Origin: Okeania sp. SIO3I5
GTDB taxonomy: Bacteria; Cyanobacteriota; Cyanobacteriia; Cyanobacteriales; Microcoleaceae
DNA length: 64,000 nt
Assembly (NCBI RefSeq): GCF_010672085.1
Contig: NZ_JAAHHT010000016.1
Coordinates: 24,887 to 88,886 of the forward strand
Reading direction: 5' to 3'
Below the pieces are notes generated by a model. It saw only the letters and a program-made list of their open reading frames with translations, did no database searches and was not told the origin of the DNA. Position 1 is the first letter of the stretch, and each line of letters opens with the position of its first letter. A program made the position numbers and the translations under genes. Positions 6,546 through 47,954 of the stretch are shown here, piece after piece.

Positions 6546-6595
6546 ACAGCACTTACGCATAGAATCTACATTTAGTAGCTCTGCGTAAGTCCTGA
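6546..6595. mobile_element. Family A inverted-repeat element (short copy)
   Basis: This 50-bp element has ends ACAGCACTTACGCA and TGCGTAAGTCCTGA, nearly exact inverted repeats. It is the shortest of five family A copies in the window (others at 7327-7419, 7680-7793, 26756-26858 and 44934-45021). AATTATTC heptamer-like repeats follow at 6594-6635. Confidence 0.8.
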
Positions 6596-6637
6596 ATTAT
6601 TAATTATTCATTATTAATTATTCATTATTAATTATCC

Positions 6638-7273
6638 ATGATTCTCTTAAATGATTTATCTGAACATCTCCAGATTGAAGACCCCGAAGAAAACCATAGT
6701 ATTAGTCCGGTAAGTTGGTCGCAATACGAAATATTATTATCAGAAAGAGGGGAAAAATCCTCCTACCGTATCAGTTATTTAGATAGAGTGGTAGAGATTT
6801 TGTCCCCTAGTCGTCGCCATGAAAGTAGAAAAACCCGAATTGGAACTTTGTTAGAAATTTATTTTCTGGAAACCAACATAGAATACTTTCCCACAGGTTC
6901 CACAACTTTTCGTAAATCTGAACAGGAAGTGGGAGGAGAACCAGACGAGAGTTATTGTATTGGCACAGATAAAGAATTTCCCGACTTGGCAGTTGAAGTA
7001 GTTGTTACGTCTGGTGGAATTAATCGGTTAGCTCTTTACCAAAGATTAGGAATACAAGAAGTTTGGTTTTGGTTTGAAGAACGCCTTGCTATTTACCATC
7101 TGCGACAAGATATGGAGCAATGCACTGCAACCTTTGGTTATGAGGCAATTAATCGAAGTAAAGTTTTACCAGAATTAGACATTAAGTTATTAACCGAATC
7201 TATTCAGAACCCCAATCCTCTTGCTGCTGTAAAAGCGTTTCGAGAAGGAACCCGAAAAATAATTAATAATTAA
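6638..7273 (+). CDS. Uma2 family (DUF820) putative endonuclease
   Basis: This 211-residue protein belongs to the PD-(D/E)XK-like Uma2 family that is greatly expanded in cyanobacteria. Visible signatures are SWSQYEILLSERG (N-terminal region), VEILSPSRRHE, FPTGSTTFRK, the acidic VGGEPDESYCIG, the core FPDLAVEVVVTSGG with Asp and Glu spaced as in the nuclease fold, and IQEVWFWFEERLAIY. Length is typical (180-215). The biological role of the family is not settled. It is a single-gene unit. The gene ends inside AATTAAT tandem repeats, so its last codons (RKIINN) are probably repeat-derived. A second, divergent Uma2 gene is at 12206-12856. Confidence 0.9.
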   Translation: MILLNDLSEHLQIEDPEENHSISPVSWSQYEILLSERGEKSSYRISYLDRVVEILSPSRRHESRKTRIGTLLEIYFLETNIEYFPTGSTTFRKSEQEVGGEPDESYCIGTDKEFPDLAVEVVVTSGGINRLALYQRLGIQEVWFWFEERLAIYHLRQDMEQCTATFGYEAINRSKVLPELDIKLLTESIQNPNPLAAVKAFREGTRKIINN

Positions 7274-7326
7274 TAATTAATAATTAATAACGACAGTCAA
7301 GATAGTTGTGTTACAGTTTTATTTAC

Positions 7327-7419
7327 TCAGGACTTACGCAAAATACGAAATCATACACCACCTGTAGGGGCGAATGGCATTCGCCCTTACTATATATAGC
7401 AGTTCTGCGTAAGTCCTGT
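7327..7419. mobile_element. Family A inverted-repeat element
   Basis: Ends CAGGACTTACGCA and TGCGTAAGTCCTG enclose a GTAGGGGCGAATGGCATTCGCCC palindrome-like core. It lies immediately upstream of the DUF6737 gene. Confidence 0.85.
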
Positions 7420-7446
7420 TACTATTTTGCTCACATATTTTTTATT

Positions 7447-7680
7447 ATGAACAACTCAGTTGAAACAGAAAAATTTAATCCGTGGAATTACAAACCTTGG
7501 TGGTGTCAACCTTGGTCAATACTTTTGACAGGAATTACTATTATTAGTGGTAGTTGGTTGATTTTTAGAATGGTTTGGTTAACAGTTATTGTTTCCATCC
7601 CTATCTTGACTTGGATGGGATTTTTCCTAATAATTTGGCCGAAGTTAATGGCAGAATTAGAAATGTCAAATAAAGTTTGA
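7447..7680 (+). CDS. DUF6737-like small membrane protein
   Basis: This 77-residue protein begins MNNSVETEKFNPWNYKPWWC. The NPWNYKPWWCQPWSILLTG core, the two hydrophobic segments (about 27-45 and 48-66) and the WPKLM end match my recollection of the DUF6737 family, a short conserved cyanobacterial membrane protein of unknown function. I prefer the start at 7447 over an in-frame Met at 7306, because the extra 47 residues would be encoded by a family A element and spacer. The TGA stop (7678-7680) directly abuts the next family A element. The gene is therefore bracketed by two family A copies. Confidence 0.8.
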   Translation: MNNSVETEKFNPWNYKPWWCQPWSILLTGITIISGSWLIFRMVWLTVIVSIPILTWMGFFLIIWPKLMAELEMSNKV

Positions 7681-7793
7681 CAGGACTTATGCAGAAGCGC
7701 CGTATCTTGTAGGGGCAAATGGCATTTGCCCTCTACAGATGGCATTTGCCCTCTACTGATAGCGTATCATTTACGAGTTTGCGTAAGTCCTGT
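7680..7793. mobile_element. Family A inverted-repeat element, abutting a stop codon
   Basis: Ends ACAGGACTTATGCA and TGCGTAAGTCCTGT; the interior has a duplicated GGCATTTGCCCTCTAC. Its first base is the last base of the DUF6737 stop codon. Confidence 0.85.
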
Positions 7794-25158: not shown

Positions 25159-25752
25159 TTAAAATTTTAACTTTACTGCTCCCTGACGCAAGATTTCCCA
25201 ACCATCAATTCCATTCCACTTAGCAACAGTTGAAGGAACCCCAGAAGTTAACATCATTTCCTGACTTTGGGACAATGAAAGAACCAAAACATCTGGAAAT
25301 TGAGCATTAATTTCAGCCATCTGCTTCAAAGCCGGCTGGCCTGATAAATTAGCACTCGTAGTAGCTAAAGGCCCTGTTTTAGCCATTATCTCCCTAGCAA
25401 TATCGCAATTAGGAATCCTAAGTCCAATTGTAGTTGGATTAACAGGATTCATTACCCTGGGCACTCTTTCCGCAGCAGGTAACACCAAAGTTAACTGCCC
25501 AGGCCAATACTTTTTAGCCACCCCTTGCCATAATTGTAACTCTTCATCACTCCCACAAACATAAGGCCACAAAGATTCAGCAGTTGCCCCCATTAAAATT
25601 AATGGTTTATCTTGACTACGATCCTTCGCTTGAAAAATTAAATCGGCTTTGTCAGGTCGAGCAGCTAATGCTGGTACAGTATCAGTAGGAAAGCTTACCA
25701 AACTACCAGATATTGCCCCCTCAACTAAAATATCAATAGATACTAAATTCAT
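25159..25752 (-). CDS. tsaC: L-threonylcarbamoyladenylate synthase (Sua5/YrdC family)
   Basis: This 197-residue enzyme makes threonylcarbamoyl-AMP from threonine, bicarbonate and ATP, the first step of t6A modification of tRNAs reading ANN codons; TsaD (39255-40322) does the transfer. Features are VSFPTDTVPALAARPDKADL, IFQAKDRSQDKPLILMGATA, KKYWPGQLTLVLPA, TIGLRIPNCDIAREI and GPLATTSANLSGQP (the KR/SxN and TSAN signatures). It lacks the C-terminal Sua5 domain, so is the short YrdC type. The gene's own 5' end (about codons 1-55) and leader are repeated in decayed form four times upstream (25870-27150). Confidence 0.93.
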   Translation of the reverse strand: MNLVSIDILVEGAISGSLVSFPTDTVPALAARPDKADLIFQAKDRSQDKPLILMGATAESLWPYVCGSDEELQLWQGVAKKYWPGQLTLVLPAAERVPRVMNPVNPTTIGLRIPNCDIAREIMAKTGPLATTSANLSGQPALKQMAEINAQFPDVLVLSLSQSQEMMLTSGVPSTVAKWNGIDGWEILRQGAVKLKF

Positions 25753-27150
25753 TATTTATTTTTCATTTTTTAATTTTTTTAAAAATTTAAGGTAATTCCA
25801 CCATCTCTGGCACAAAAAACCTCCAACCTGGGGAGCTTAAGAAAATGATTTGAGCTTCAAATTAAATTATTTCCACCACTTACTCCCCATTAAAATCAAA
25901 GGTTTATTTTAACTGCGCCCCTGATTGAAAAATTCAATCTCCTCTGTCAGGCCGAGCTGCCAGTGCTGCTACAATATCAACAAGAAAGCTAGTATTTTTA
26001 ACAGAAATCGCTCCTTCGATATAAAATCTCAATAGACATCAAACTTATTTATTTTATTTTTCATTTTTTAATTTTTTGAAAATTTAGAGGCAATTCCAGC
26101 ATCTCTAACACAAAAAACCTCTAATCCAGGGAGCTTAAGAAAATGATTTGAGCTTCAAATTAAATTATTTTTACCACTTACTCCCCATTAAAATCAAAAG
26201 TCGATCTTGAGTCCTTCTGTGGAAAAATTCAATCTCCTCTGTCAGGTCGAGCTGCCAGTGCTGCTACAATATCAACAAGAAAGCTAGTATTTTTAACAGA
26301 AATCGCTCCTTCGATATAGAATCTCAATAGACATCAAACTTATTTCTTTTATTTTTCATTTTTTAATTTTTTGAAAATTTAGAGGCAATTCCAGCATCTC
26401 TAACACAAAAAACTTCTAATCCAGGGAGCTTAAGAAAATGATTTGAGCTTCAAATTAAATTATTTTTACCACTTACTCCCAATTCAAATCAAAGGTTTAT
26501 TTTAACTGCGCCCCTGATTGAAAAATTCAATCTCCTCTGTCAGGTCGAGCTGCCAGTGCTGCTACAATATCAGCAAGAAAGCTAGTAGTTTTAGCAGAAA
26601 CCGCTCCTTAAATATAGAATCTCAATAAACAGCAAACTTATTTATTTCATTTTTCATTTTTTAATTTTTTGAAAATTTGAGGCAATTCCAGGATCTCTGA
26701 GACAAAAAACCTCCAAACTGGGGAGCTTAAGAAAATGATTTTTGGTTCAAATTAAACAGGACTTACGCATTTTTGAATTCTAAACACTACATATTTATAA
26801 CGTTATAGTTTTTGAACCCCATAAGCCGCTATATATAGTGTCTCTGCGTAAGTCCTGTTAAATTATTTCTACCACTTACTCCCCATTAAAATCAAAAGTT
26901 TATTTTAACTGCGCCCCTAATTGAAAAATTCAATCGGCTTTGTCAGGTCGAGCTGCTAGTGCTGCTACAATATCAGCAAGAAAGCTAGTAGTTTTAGCAG
27001 AAACCGCTCCTTAAATCTTAAATATAAAATCTCAATAGACACTAAATATATTTCTTTCATTTTTCATTTTTTAATTTTTTGAAAATTTGAGGCAATTCTA
27101 GCACTTCTGACACAAAAAATCTCCAACCTGGGGAGCTTAAGAAAATGATA
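25753..27150. repeat. Array of four decayed copies of the tsaC 5' end and leader
   Basis: Directly upstream of tsaC, a unit of about 295-298 bp recurs with the landmark TTACTCCC(C) at 25880, 26178, 26473 and 26877. Each unit matches the first ~55 codons of tsaC plus its leader: for example AAATCGGCTTTGTCAGGTCG in the gene versus CAATCTCCTCTGTCAGGTCG in the copies, and the leader blocks TTTTTCATTTTTTAATTTTT, CACAAAAAACCTC and GGGAGCTTAAGAAAATGAT are nearly identical. All copies have stops and indels. The copies resemble each other more than the gene, so a decayed copy was amplified. The third interval is 404 bp because a 103-bp family A element plus 3 bp sits in it. Confidence 0.85.
26756..26858. 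mobile_element. Family A element inserted in the tsaC-derived array, with empty-site controls
   Basis: A perfect 14-bp inverted terminal repeat ACAGGACTTACGCA flanks a 103-bp element. The flanks are ...CAAATTAA and TAAATTATTT, whereas the neighbouring array units have uninterrupted CAAATTAAATTATTT. This gives a 3-bp TAA target duplication (TTAA if the border is shifted one base). Removing element plus duplication restores the 298-bp unit exactly. Confidence 0.9.
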
Positions 27151-27547: not shown

Positions 27548-28456
27548 CTACTTCAAATAAGCCATAGCAAACCTATTAACACCCTCAAAATCCCGAAAAA
27601 CCTCAACCCGACAATAAGCTCCATTATCTTCCAACATTTCAGCAACCATCTCCCCTTGCCCATCCATCATCTCCACCAACCAAACACCACCAGAAACCAA
27701 ATATAGTGGAGCCCTTTCAATTAAAAACCTAATACAATCTAGACCATCAACACCGCCATCAAGGGCCGAACGAGGCTCATGCTTCCTAACCTCTACTTGC
27801 AAAGTAGAAATCATACCACTAGGAATATAAGGAGGATTGGCCACCATCCCACTCACCCTACCCCGCAAATGCTCCAGCGGTTCCCACCAAGAACCCTCAT
27901 AAAAACTAATTCTATGAGCAAAACCTAACCTAATAGCATTCTGTCTAGCAATAGCCAAAGCTTCTAGACTACAATCAACAGCATAAATCGAAGCATCTGT
28001 CAATACACCAGCTAAACCACAAGCGATCGCCCCACTACCAGTTCCCAAATCCACCCAAATTCCTTGTCCAAGCTCCGAAACAGCATTAGTAGCATCTACA
28101 ACCAGATCAATTAAACACTCCGTTTCCGGCCTAGGAATCAAAACCCCAGAACCCACCTCCAAAGAAAAATTCCGCCAATAAGTAACCCCAGTTAAATATT
28201 GAAGCGGAACCCTATCCTCCAAACGTCGGCGCCAAAGACCATCCAACTCAACTAAAGAAAGACTCATTGAAACATTAGGCCAATCCTTAAAAGACTCCAG
28301 ACGCAATGTTAATCTATCCAGTCCAGTAAACTCCTGTAACAACAAATCAACCTCAGCAACAGATATATCTTCCCTCAAAGCATCAGCCTTAGTTTGACAA
28401 TACCATCGCCAAAGTTCCAGACCTGAAACGAAGCACTTAGAGGGAAAATCCATCAA
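27548..28456 (-). CDS. prmC: Peptide chain release factor N5-glutamine methyltransferase
   Basis: This 302-residue SAM-dependent enzyme methylates the GGQ glutamine of release factors RF1/RF2. It has an N-terminal helical substrate domain (1-95) with RVPLQYLTGVTYWRNFSLEV, then IPRPETECLIDLVVDA, the SAM-binding IWVDLGTGSGAIACGLA, and the catalytic NPPY motif (MVANPPYIPSG). DGGVDGLDCIRFLIERA and the C-terminal GVNRFAMAYLK are also typical. Length is normal. There are two Mets at the start; either is possible. It is a single-gene unit on the minus strand. Confidence 0.95.
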   Translation of the reverse strand: MMDFPSKCFVSGLELWRWYCQTKADALREDISVAEVDLLLQEFTGLDRLTLRLESFKDWPNVSMSLSLVELDGLWRRRLEDRVPLQYLTGVTYWRNFSLEVGSGVLIPRPETECLIDLVVDATNAVSELGQGIWVDLGTGSGAIACGLAGVLTDASIYAVDCSLEALAIARQNAIRLGFAHRISFYEGSWWEPLEHLRGRVSGMVANPPYIPSGMISTLQVEVRKHEPRSALDGGVDGLDCIRFLIERAPLYLVSGGVWLVEMMDGQGEMVAEMLEDNGAYCRVEVFRDFEGVNRFAMAYLK

Positions 28457-33082: not shown

Positions 33083-33808
33083 ATGGCTCCGGGTTTAAAA
33101 TCATCGACATTAGAACTGCTAAAGCGCTTCAACCGAGCGTTTCCACAGTTTTATGAACAATTTGTCAGTAGTGATATTCAACTGCAAAATTTGAAACTAG
33201 CATATCAACTCTATAAAAGCAAACAAGCTGTAATAGAGCTAAAACCAGAAAGCAACAAAAGTGCCCTGCACTTTACCTACCGAAATCAATCGTTCTTACT
33301 CAGTGATATTTTTGGAGTATTAGCTGCTTATGGACTAACTATTCATAGTCTTAGTCTTTATGGACAAATTTACCCACCGATGTTGGTCTTTATCAAATTA
33401 GTAATATCTCGGGGGGGCAAAGCATTAACAGAGAAAACCTCGGAAAATGTTTGTCGCGCCATCCGTGAATCACTAGCAGGCCACTTCGAGGTGGAAGAAA
33501 TGTTGGCAGTAGAATTTAATCTAGATAGTGGTTTAGAGGAGGTAGAAACAGAATTTTATGTCGATCCTGTATTTCATCTACCAGCACTATTAATTGAGGC
33601 CGATAATCAACCAGGTCTATTCTACAAAGTTATGTATGCTATCTGGCAGGAAGATTTGTTGGTAGTTAATGCCAATTTGTTAGTTTGGCGTGGACGAACT
33701 CGCCTCATTCTTTATCTCCTGGGGCCAAATGAAAGTTTGATTCCAGAATACCTAGGCCAGAAAATTGCTGAAGGTGTGCGACAAAGATTGATGGGAGAAA
33801 GGTACTAA
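33083..33808 (+). CDS. Tandem ACT-like domain protein
   Basis: This 241-residue protein has two ACT-like regulatory folds: about residues 68-150 (LHFTYRNQSFLLSDIFGVLA, then LTIHSLSLYGQ) and 163-235 (FHLPALLIEADNQPGLFYKV, then LLVVNANLLVWRGRTRLILY). The second has the canonical DxPGLxxxV/I turn. This pairing resembles the C-terminal ACT pair of GlnD-type sensors, but no catalytic domain is present. It probably binds an amino acid or acts as a regulatory subunit. The final codons Glu-Arg-Tyr-stop are the first bases of a tandem array (33801-34335). It is divergent from the NSI-like acetyltransferase. Confidence 0.8.
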   Translation: MAPGLKSSTLELLKRFNRAFPQFYEQFVSSDIQLQNLKLAYQLYKSKQAVIELKPESNKSALHFTYRNQSFLLSDIFGVLAAYGLTIHSLSLYGQIYPPMLVFIKLVISRGGKALTEKTSENVCRAIRESLAGHFEVEEMLAVEFNLDSGLEEVETEFYVDPVFHLPALLIEADNQPGLFYKVMYAIWQEDLLVVNANLLVWRGRTRLILYLLGPNESLIPEYLGQKIAEGVRQRLMGERY

Positions 33809-34335
33809 ATTAATTAATAATTAATAATTAATAATTAATAATTAATCCCCAGAGGTTTTTAGCCTCTCCTTATTAATGAGAAAAAAGTGCGAGGAGATTT
33901 CCATACTTGATTCAATCCTCTAGGTTTTTACCAAAGGTACTAAATTAATTAATAATTAATAATTAATAATTAATCCCCAGAGGTTTTTAGCCTCTCCTTA
34001 TTAAGGAGAAAAAAGTGCGAGGAGATTTCCATACTTGATTCAATCCTCTCGGTTTTTACCAAAGGTACTAAATTAATTAATAATTAATAATTAATAATTA
34101 ATAATTAATCCCCAGAGGTTTTTAGCCTCTCCTTATTAATGAGAAAAAAGTGCGAGGAGATTTCCATACTTGATTCAATCCTCTCGGTTTTTACCAAAGG
34201 TACTAAATTAATTAATAATTAATAATTAATAATTAATAATTAATCCCCAGAGGTTTTTAGCCTCTCCTTATTAATGAGAAAAAAGTGCGAGGAGATTTCC
34301 ATACTTGATTCAATCCTCTCGGTTTTTACCAAAGG
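33801..34335. repeat. Fourfold tandem duplication of a gene's 3' end and spacer
   Basis: Four direct copies of a 128-135 bp unit start at 33801, 33936, 34064 and 34199, each with GGTACTAAATTAATTAATAA. Each unit includes the last codons and stop of the ACT gene (AGGTACTAA), two to five AATTAAT heptamers (explaining the length difference of 7 bp), an AGAGGTTTTTAGCCTCT hairpin and GTGCGAGGAGATTTCCATAC. Copies are nearly identical, so the expansion is recent. Confidence 0.95.
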
Positions 34336-34717
34336 TAATTATTACTCTGGTGATTAAATCTAAACATTGACAGATCAAAATTTTAGGCTTTAAGGAGCGA
34401 AAAAAAGTGCAACTTTATTCAGCAAAACCTAATTATTCATTAATGAATCTTACCGAATAATTATTAATTATTAATTATTCACCTTTATTATTCTCCCCTG
34501 AAAAGCGGAAAATAATAAATTTTTTCCTTCTTGCTCAATCCTCTCCCTTTTAGGGAGAGGTAATTATCAATTATCCACAATTATCCATTAATGAACAAAT
34601 TCCCATTTCTTCTGTAGGGGCGATTCGCGTTTGCGCAGGATTCCGCAGGAAATCTCCCCTACGACTCCTACCCTCACCCATAAGACTTTTTCAGCAAGTC
34701 CTACTTAAAATAAAAAT
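34336..34717. repeat. Spacer with decayed family D pieces
   Basis: 34375-34435 has GGCTTTAAGGAGCGAAAAAA and TTCAGCAAAACCTAATTA, and 34660-34706 has ACTTTTTCAGCAAGTCCTA: both are family D remnants. A GTAGGGGCGATTCGCG repeat lies at 34613-34640. No gene. Confidence 0.6.
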
Positions 34718-44681: not shown

Positions 44682-45281
44682 TGGACTGATACAGCTAATG
44701 GGTGTGCATTAGGTCAGGTGTACTTGATTGTATGTTATCTCATCCGGTTTAATAGTCATAATTACAGCAATTTCGGAGGCGCGTGAGGTACAAAATTTGG
44801 TCTAGTAATTTTGGTAACACAGCCTTCTAGACTGTAACAAGCAGGATGCTTGAACTGCAAATTCAACTGTACCCCACCTTCCTCATGCATTGCTGTAAAG
44901 CTTGTAGTAGGGCTTTAGTCCGAACATATAGATCGGGACTTACGCACAACCACCATATCTAGTTAAAGGTCGTTAACCCCTAAATATTTTGTATAATTTG
45001 ATATGCGTGCGCAAGTCCTGTAGATATTGTTCAAACCCTACTACGAACAAAAACTTTTTTATCTCTCATTATTCGGACATCATAATAAAATCTCTAGCTA
45101 TGCTCTCAACTGGTACAATTTTTGTTTGCGAATTCCGAAGCAAAGGAAAGAAGCTAATATCATGTTCGGATAATCAGTTATAAAAAAATCTTTTTCCTTT
45201 GAACCTTTCTTTTCCTTCTGCCATCTGCCTTCTGCTTTTCTGTAAATGTCTAATGACTAACTAAACAATTCTTGTTAATAC
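44682..45281. repeat. Spacer with family A element and other element ends
   Basis: 44763-44896 is enclosed by TACAGCAATTTCGGAGGC and CATGCATTGCTGTA, and contains GTGAGGTACA as in the ndhF-ndhD spacer repeats. 44934-45021 is family A (GGGACTTACGCA to TGCGCAAGTCCTGT). 45156-45177 is a family I end (AATATCATGTTCGGATAATC). 45217-45240 has CTGCCAT/CTGCCTT heptamers. No gene. Confidence 0.65.
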
Positions 45282-47236: not shown

Positions 47237-47265
47237 AATTTGTAAATTCTCAATTCTAAATTCTA

Positions 47266-47954
<689 letters not shown>

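Follow-up and report, generated by a model that had tools for sequence, protein, structure and literature searches.

The closest described system is ISPlag1, an IS701-like insertion sequence of Planktothrix agardhii that has been reported to inactivate and delete mcy genes (PMC9366434). In the IS701 family as analysed by De Palmenaer et al. (2008), the target duplication is almost always exactly 4 bp and the ends follow the pattern ---YACT-Y--YR, a consensus not representative of the whole family (PMC2266710), and 5-bp direct repeats have been described for ISAba11 of Acinetobacter (PMC7885321). Among short derivatives, 147 MITEs of Anabaena sp. 90 were classed as type II, without a matching insertion sequence (PMC3542288).

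The locus described here lies in a window of 64,000 nucleotides (the whole stretch of DNA analysed) from Okeania sp. SIO3I5, whose genome comprises 10.5 Mb in 562 contigs. It holds an element of an already known kind, a well-documented relative of ISPlag1 and IS701-type insertion sequences. An annotated ISPlag1 copy (L321; target duplication TTCAA) has 13-bp ends, CAGGACTTACGCA, identical to those of the window element and, like it, the subterminal stretch ...ACACTATATATAGYG; ISPlag1 is approximately 1.3 kb long and carries a transposase gene, whereas the window element is a gene-less derivative of 101 bp. The MITEs of Anabaena sp. 90 resemble the window family in being short inverted-repeat elements of many copies, some of which interrupt genes, but in the present case the parent insertion sequence was identified, by its ends, its target duplication and a 31-bp shared end.

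Ends, target duplication and copy number

The element is flanked by TTAAA on both sides (TTAAA/CAGG...CCTG/TTAAA; Table 1), and end-like sites were found ten times in the window where 0.32 would be expected. The first-pass annotation had assigned it perfect inverted ends of 14 bp, with TAA (3 bp) or TTAA as the duplicated target. Perfect repeats are indeed present in that register (26756-26769 and 26845-26858), but the fourteenth base varies among copies and the true ends are 13 bp. This emerged from a sample of 842 kb, made up of 40 stretches of at most 20 kb (several picked for carrying ends) and the window, which contained 73 end pairs, the majority spanning 88-119 bp. An exact 5-bp duplication was present in 41 of 63 paired copies, compared to 0.4 expected by random pairing, and a 6-bp match in 7 further copies of the 63 (0.23 expected); several of the remainder were overlapping pairings with one end in common. 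The 41 copies displayed 37 different duplicated sequences, with an AT-rich preference in the flanks. The target duplication is 5 bp, sometimes 6; the 3-bp duplication was wrong, with its TAA and the fourteenth base being the 5-bp duplication read in the wrong frame. A caution follows for similar loci, as a single copy in AT-rich DNA cannot give the length of the duplication.

Table 1. Coordinates of the element, its host array and related features (positions within the window unless a locus is named).
Feature	Location	Strand	Basis or comment
MITE core, 101 bp, CAGG...CCTG	26757..26857	+	sequence; relatives elsewhere in genome
Left 13-bp inverted end CAGGACTTACGCA	26757..26769	+	
Right 13-bp inverted end CAGGACTTACGCA	26845..26857	-	
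31-bp IS-type end CAGGACTTACGCAGAGACACTATATATAGCG	26827..26857	-	one mismatch vs full-length IS ends, same genome
TTAAA, left copy of 5-bp target duplication	26752..26756		sequence; register from genome sample
TTAAA, right copy of 5-bp target duplication	26858..26862		sequence; register from genome sample
Array unit 1, uninterrupted target	25831..26128		unit comparison
Array unit 2, uninterrupted target	26129..26423		unit comparison
Array unit 3, uninterrupted target	26424..26720		unit comparison
Array unit 4, interrupted by element	26721..27130		unit comparison
Short MITE copy, 48-bp core, target duplication AATTA	6547..6594		
MITE copy, another subfamily, 91-bp core	7328..7418		precise empty site in Hydrocoleum sp. 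CS-953
MITE copy, 112-bp core, target duplication TTTGA	7681..7792		precise empty site in Hydrocoleum sp. CS-953 and G004
MITE copy, 87-bp core, target duplication TAGAT	44934..45020		
MITE-bearing array	L197 1697-2432 (G000, the window genome; contig C501); also L198, L199, L200, L201, L202		

Searching the genome with the 14-mer end, allowing at most one mismatch, gave 790 matches (0 for the reversed control), and the 13-mer ends occurred exactly 304 and 315 times, so that the family amounts to several hundred copies. At least three interiors share these ends, of approximately 93 bp (with the palindrome GGGCGAATGGCATTCGCCC), 104 bp (AGAAACCCGGTTTCT) and 103 bp (ATAACGTTAT); the window copy is of the last type, and its core has full-length relatives in other parts of the genome at 93-96% identity. 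Neither an Rfam scan of the locus nor a literature search with the end sequence returned a match or a relevant paper. Three copies of different types lie within 1.25 kb of the window (6546-7793), where they surround a small conserved ORF at about 7445-7680. Exact 13-bp ends numbered 773 in G001, 538 in G005 and 461 in G025, which belongs to a different family; by these counts, expansion of the element varies greatly among close relatives.

The parent insertion sequence

A full-length insertion sequence of 1387 bp with the same ends was found in this genome (L074, target duplication TAATT), its transposase gene being broken by a 1-nt insertion. That the best local transposase copy is read through a programmed frameshift was considered and rejected, as the 1-nt insertion is absent from better-preserved relatives. 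No intact transposase gene was found among 25 matches in this genome, where the best copy is split and the full-length copies are diverged and decayed, which suggests that the family is now probably largely immobile here. An intact copy of 1181 bp, with a single ORF of 335 aa and the target duplication CTGCC, is present in G038, a genome of the same order (L110). The transposase scored 394-401 bits against the NCBIfam model NF049921 (transpos_IS701_2; cut-off 250). Scanning named genomes identified 354 relatives, the best 80 of which include copies from Planktothrix, Nostoc, Calothrix, Microcoleus and Okeania and also from Latescibacteria, Chloroflexi and Gammaproteobacteria.

The autonomous insertion sequences sharing the ends of the MITE comprise L074, L110, L211-L290 and the ISPlag1 copy, and an exact 5-bp duplication was observed for 44 of the 71 scored copies with ends YAGGACTTACGCA. 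A longer end, CAGGACTTACGCANNNACRCTATATATAGYG or near to it, is common to oscillatorian copies (Planktothrix, Microcoleus, G038 and this genome) and missing from most Nostocales copies. The window MITE retains this longer end in full on its right side (31-32 bp at 97%), with only the terminal 13 bp on its left. Two of the checks that the first-pass annotation had proposed, collecting flanks and searching for a transposase gene with the same ends, have both come out in favour of mobility, with a consistent 5-bp duplication and a full-length insertion sequence; what it had named as grounds for refutation, a lack of any consistent duplication or copies confined to larger duplications, was not what we found.

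With a 101-bp core too small for a transposase, perfect 13-bp ends, duplicated targets at many unrelated sites and autonomous elements bearing the same ends, the window element has the properties expected of a MITE. The placing of its parent differs according to the character used. At the level of the transposase the parent is like the IS701 family, exceeding the cut-off of the curated model and possessing the DDE and R(3)E(6)K arrangement, that is YREK without the Y, read by eye in the L110 protein as C-HL-R-WKI-E-EFHREV-K. Its duplication is 5-6 bp instead of exactly 4 bp (5 bp in 44 of 71 insertion sequences and 41 of 63 MITEs), and its ends match the IS701 pattern in part, agreeing at ACT and YR and differing at both other Y positions. 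The 5-bp duplication is shared with ISAba11. HHEK is reportedly the signature motif of the ISAba11 family (title of Rieck et al. 2012), and it is not evident in the parent's proteins. A relative of approximately 45% identity, which may or may not be ISAba11 itself, is present on an A. baumannii plasmid; it has ends TAGGACTTACGCA, and the repeat flanking it was read as 4 bp. Judged by its transposase the parent can keep the IS701 label, but it departs from the 4-bp definition of 2008, and 'ISPlag1-like' is the safest name for the parent because ISPlag1 has a measured 5-bp duplication too.

The interrupted array and the timing of insertion

The array is flanked by a sua5/tsaC-like ORF (25159-25752, minus strand) and a prmC-like ORF (27548-28456, minus strand), both named by reading their translations. 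Units 1-3 read TTCAAATTAAATTATTT unbroken and unit 4 reads TTCAAATTAAACAGGACTTACGCA...TGCGTAAGTCCTGTTAAATTATTT, so the reasoning of the first-pass annotation, that neighbouring units supply the empty site, is sound. Its statement that the 298-bp period is restored exactly stands in substance: subtracting 106 bp (the element and one duplication) from the interrupted unit of 403 bp leaves 297 bp, beside neighbours of 298 and 295 bp, and 'exactly' is slightly off because unit lengths vary. With three of the four units clean, its further claim that the element moved after the array had formed is supported. The array units of approximately 297 bp (window 25588-26756; L191 and L192) resemble the sua5/tsaC-like gene at its 5' end, together with its upstream DNA, and the array was also found in G003 and Hydrocoleum sp. 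CS-953, with the sequence apparently single in G001, G004, G005 and G006.

Mobility of the family was borne out by the empty sites of the array and also by orthologous empty sites in another species, tested for two window copies. The sequence of Hydrocoleum sp. CS-953 (genome G002, in the same genus as the window genome) aligns without a break across the sites of the 7328-7418 and 7681-7792 copies, each minus the element and one 5-bp duplication with gap-free junctions, and G004 too is empty at the second of them; the Hydrocoleum sites contradict the alternative of insertions shared everywhere. The sister species G003 shares the insertion itself, in the same array and at an identical site, between TTAGA on the left and TTAAA on the right; the element is 94% and the flanks are 89-90% identical to those in the window. 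The window insertion is therefore not recent, and took place after the array existed and before the window genome and G003 separated. The array of Hydrocoleum sp. CS-953, of about three units, has no element, which fits an insertion after its split or a loss there. Unit number and the position of the element within the array differ between the window genome and G003, indicating that the array kept changing.

In separate arrays of 145-177-bp units, the subfamily of the window element, often with worn ends, is present in every unit (periods of 177 bp on C501, 166 on C82, 169 on C202, 145 on C280 and C135, and 157 on C46). In these six the MITE inserted before amplification and was amplified together with the array, the reverse of the window case. 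That the 101-bp subfamily helps to create tandem arrays, as a seed and not only a passenger, is an idea we regard as unlikely. The window also contains a 222-bp unit array (47255-47920; 3 copies, 98% match), a 135-bp unit array (33798-34337; 4 copies, 95% match) and numerous 7-bp tandem repeats (TCAGTTA, CTATTCC, TAATTAA and others).

Origin of the element and what it implies

The element is very probably a MITE of an ISPlag1-like, IS701-type insertion sequence, moved into a pre-existing array by the transposase of a full-length copy. By this putative action in trans, the DDE transposase would recognise the 13-bp ends (with the complete 31-bp end at the right), move the element as DNA by a predicted cut-and-paste chemistry, and join it to a target in AT-rich DNA cut with a 5-bp stagger, which would leave TTAAA on both sides. 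Two observations weigh against this account: on the left the element keeps 13 bp instead of the complete 31-bp end, and the 25 matches in this genome yielded no intact transposase gene.

An IS5/IS1031-like transposon, with ends of 14 bp and a duplication of TAA (3 bp) or TTAA, is compatible with the window copy, as is the 5-bp reading, and in the 3-bp register 44 of 63 copies match where 3 would be expected; that match, however, is the middle of the 5-bp match, and the outer base is variable. The 5-bp statistics refute this reading, the partner transposase is IS701-type, and the IS5/IS1031-type source itself (3-bp TNA duplication with DDE_Tnp_4) was rejected on the length of the duplication and on a search of the genome for PF13359, which gave no match, so we consider it scarcely credible. 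Copying in of a palindromic REP-like repeat by recombination or repair, without a DDE transposase, would suit the good fold-back of the element's strand (DNA z-score -4.2), but transposition is indicated by the regularity of the 5-bp duplications across unrelated sites, by full-length insertion sequences that have the same ends and duplication, and by the precise empty sites; the duplication statistics disfavour this origin strongly, and it too is hardly to be believed.

A little less improbable, though still very unlikely, is that the element predates the array, having once been present in every unit and been precisely excised from all but one. The array on C501, where the same subfamily occupies every tandem unit (4 copies at approximately 177-bp spacing), gives a precedent for such a starting point. 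Against it, clean units without a footprint make up 4 of 5 in G003 and 3 of 4 in the window, the Hydrocoleum sp. CS-953 array is entirely without the element, and several independent precise excisions would be required. Insertion of the element into an array that already existed is the supported order of events.

What had been a suggestive insertion thus becomes a dated and mechanistically placed event, with a parent family, an exact target duplication and both empty and filled sites. Insertion sequences of the parent's type have been reported to disrupt the microcystin genes of Planktothrix, and with several hundred copies the family is usable as a marker of insertion history in these large cyanobacterial genomes.
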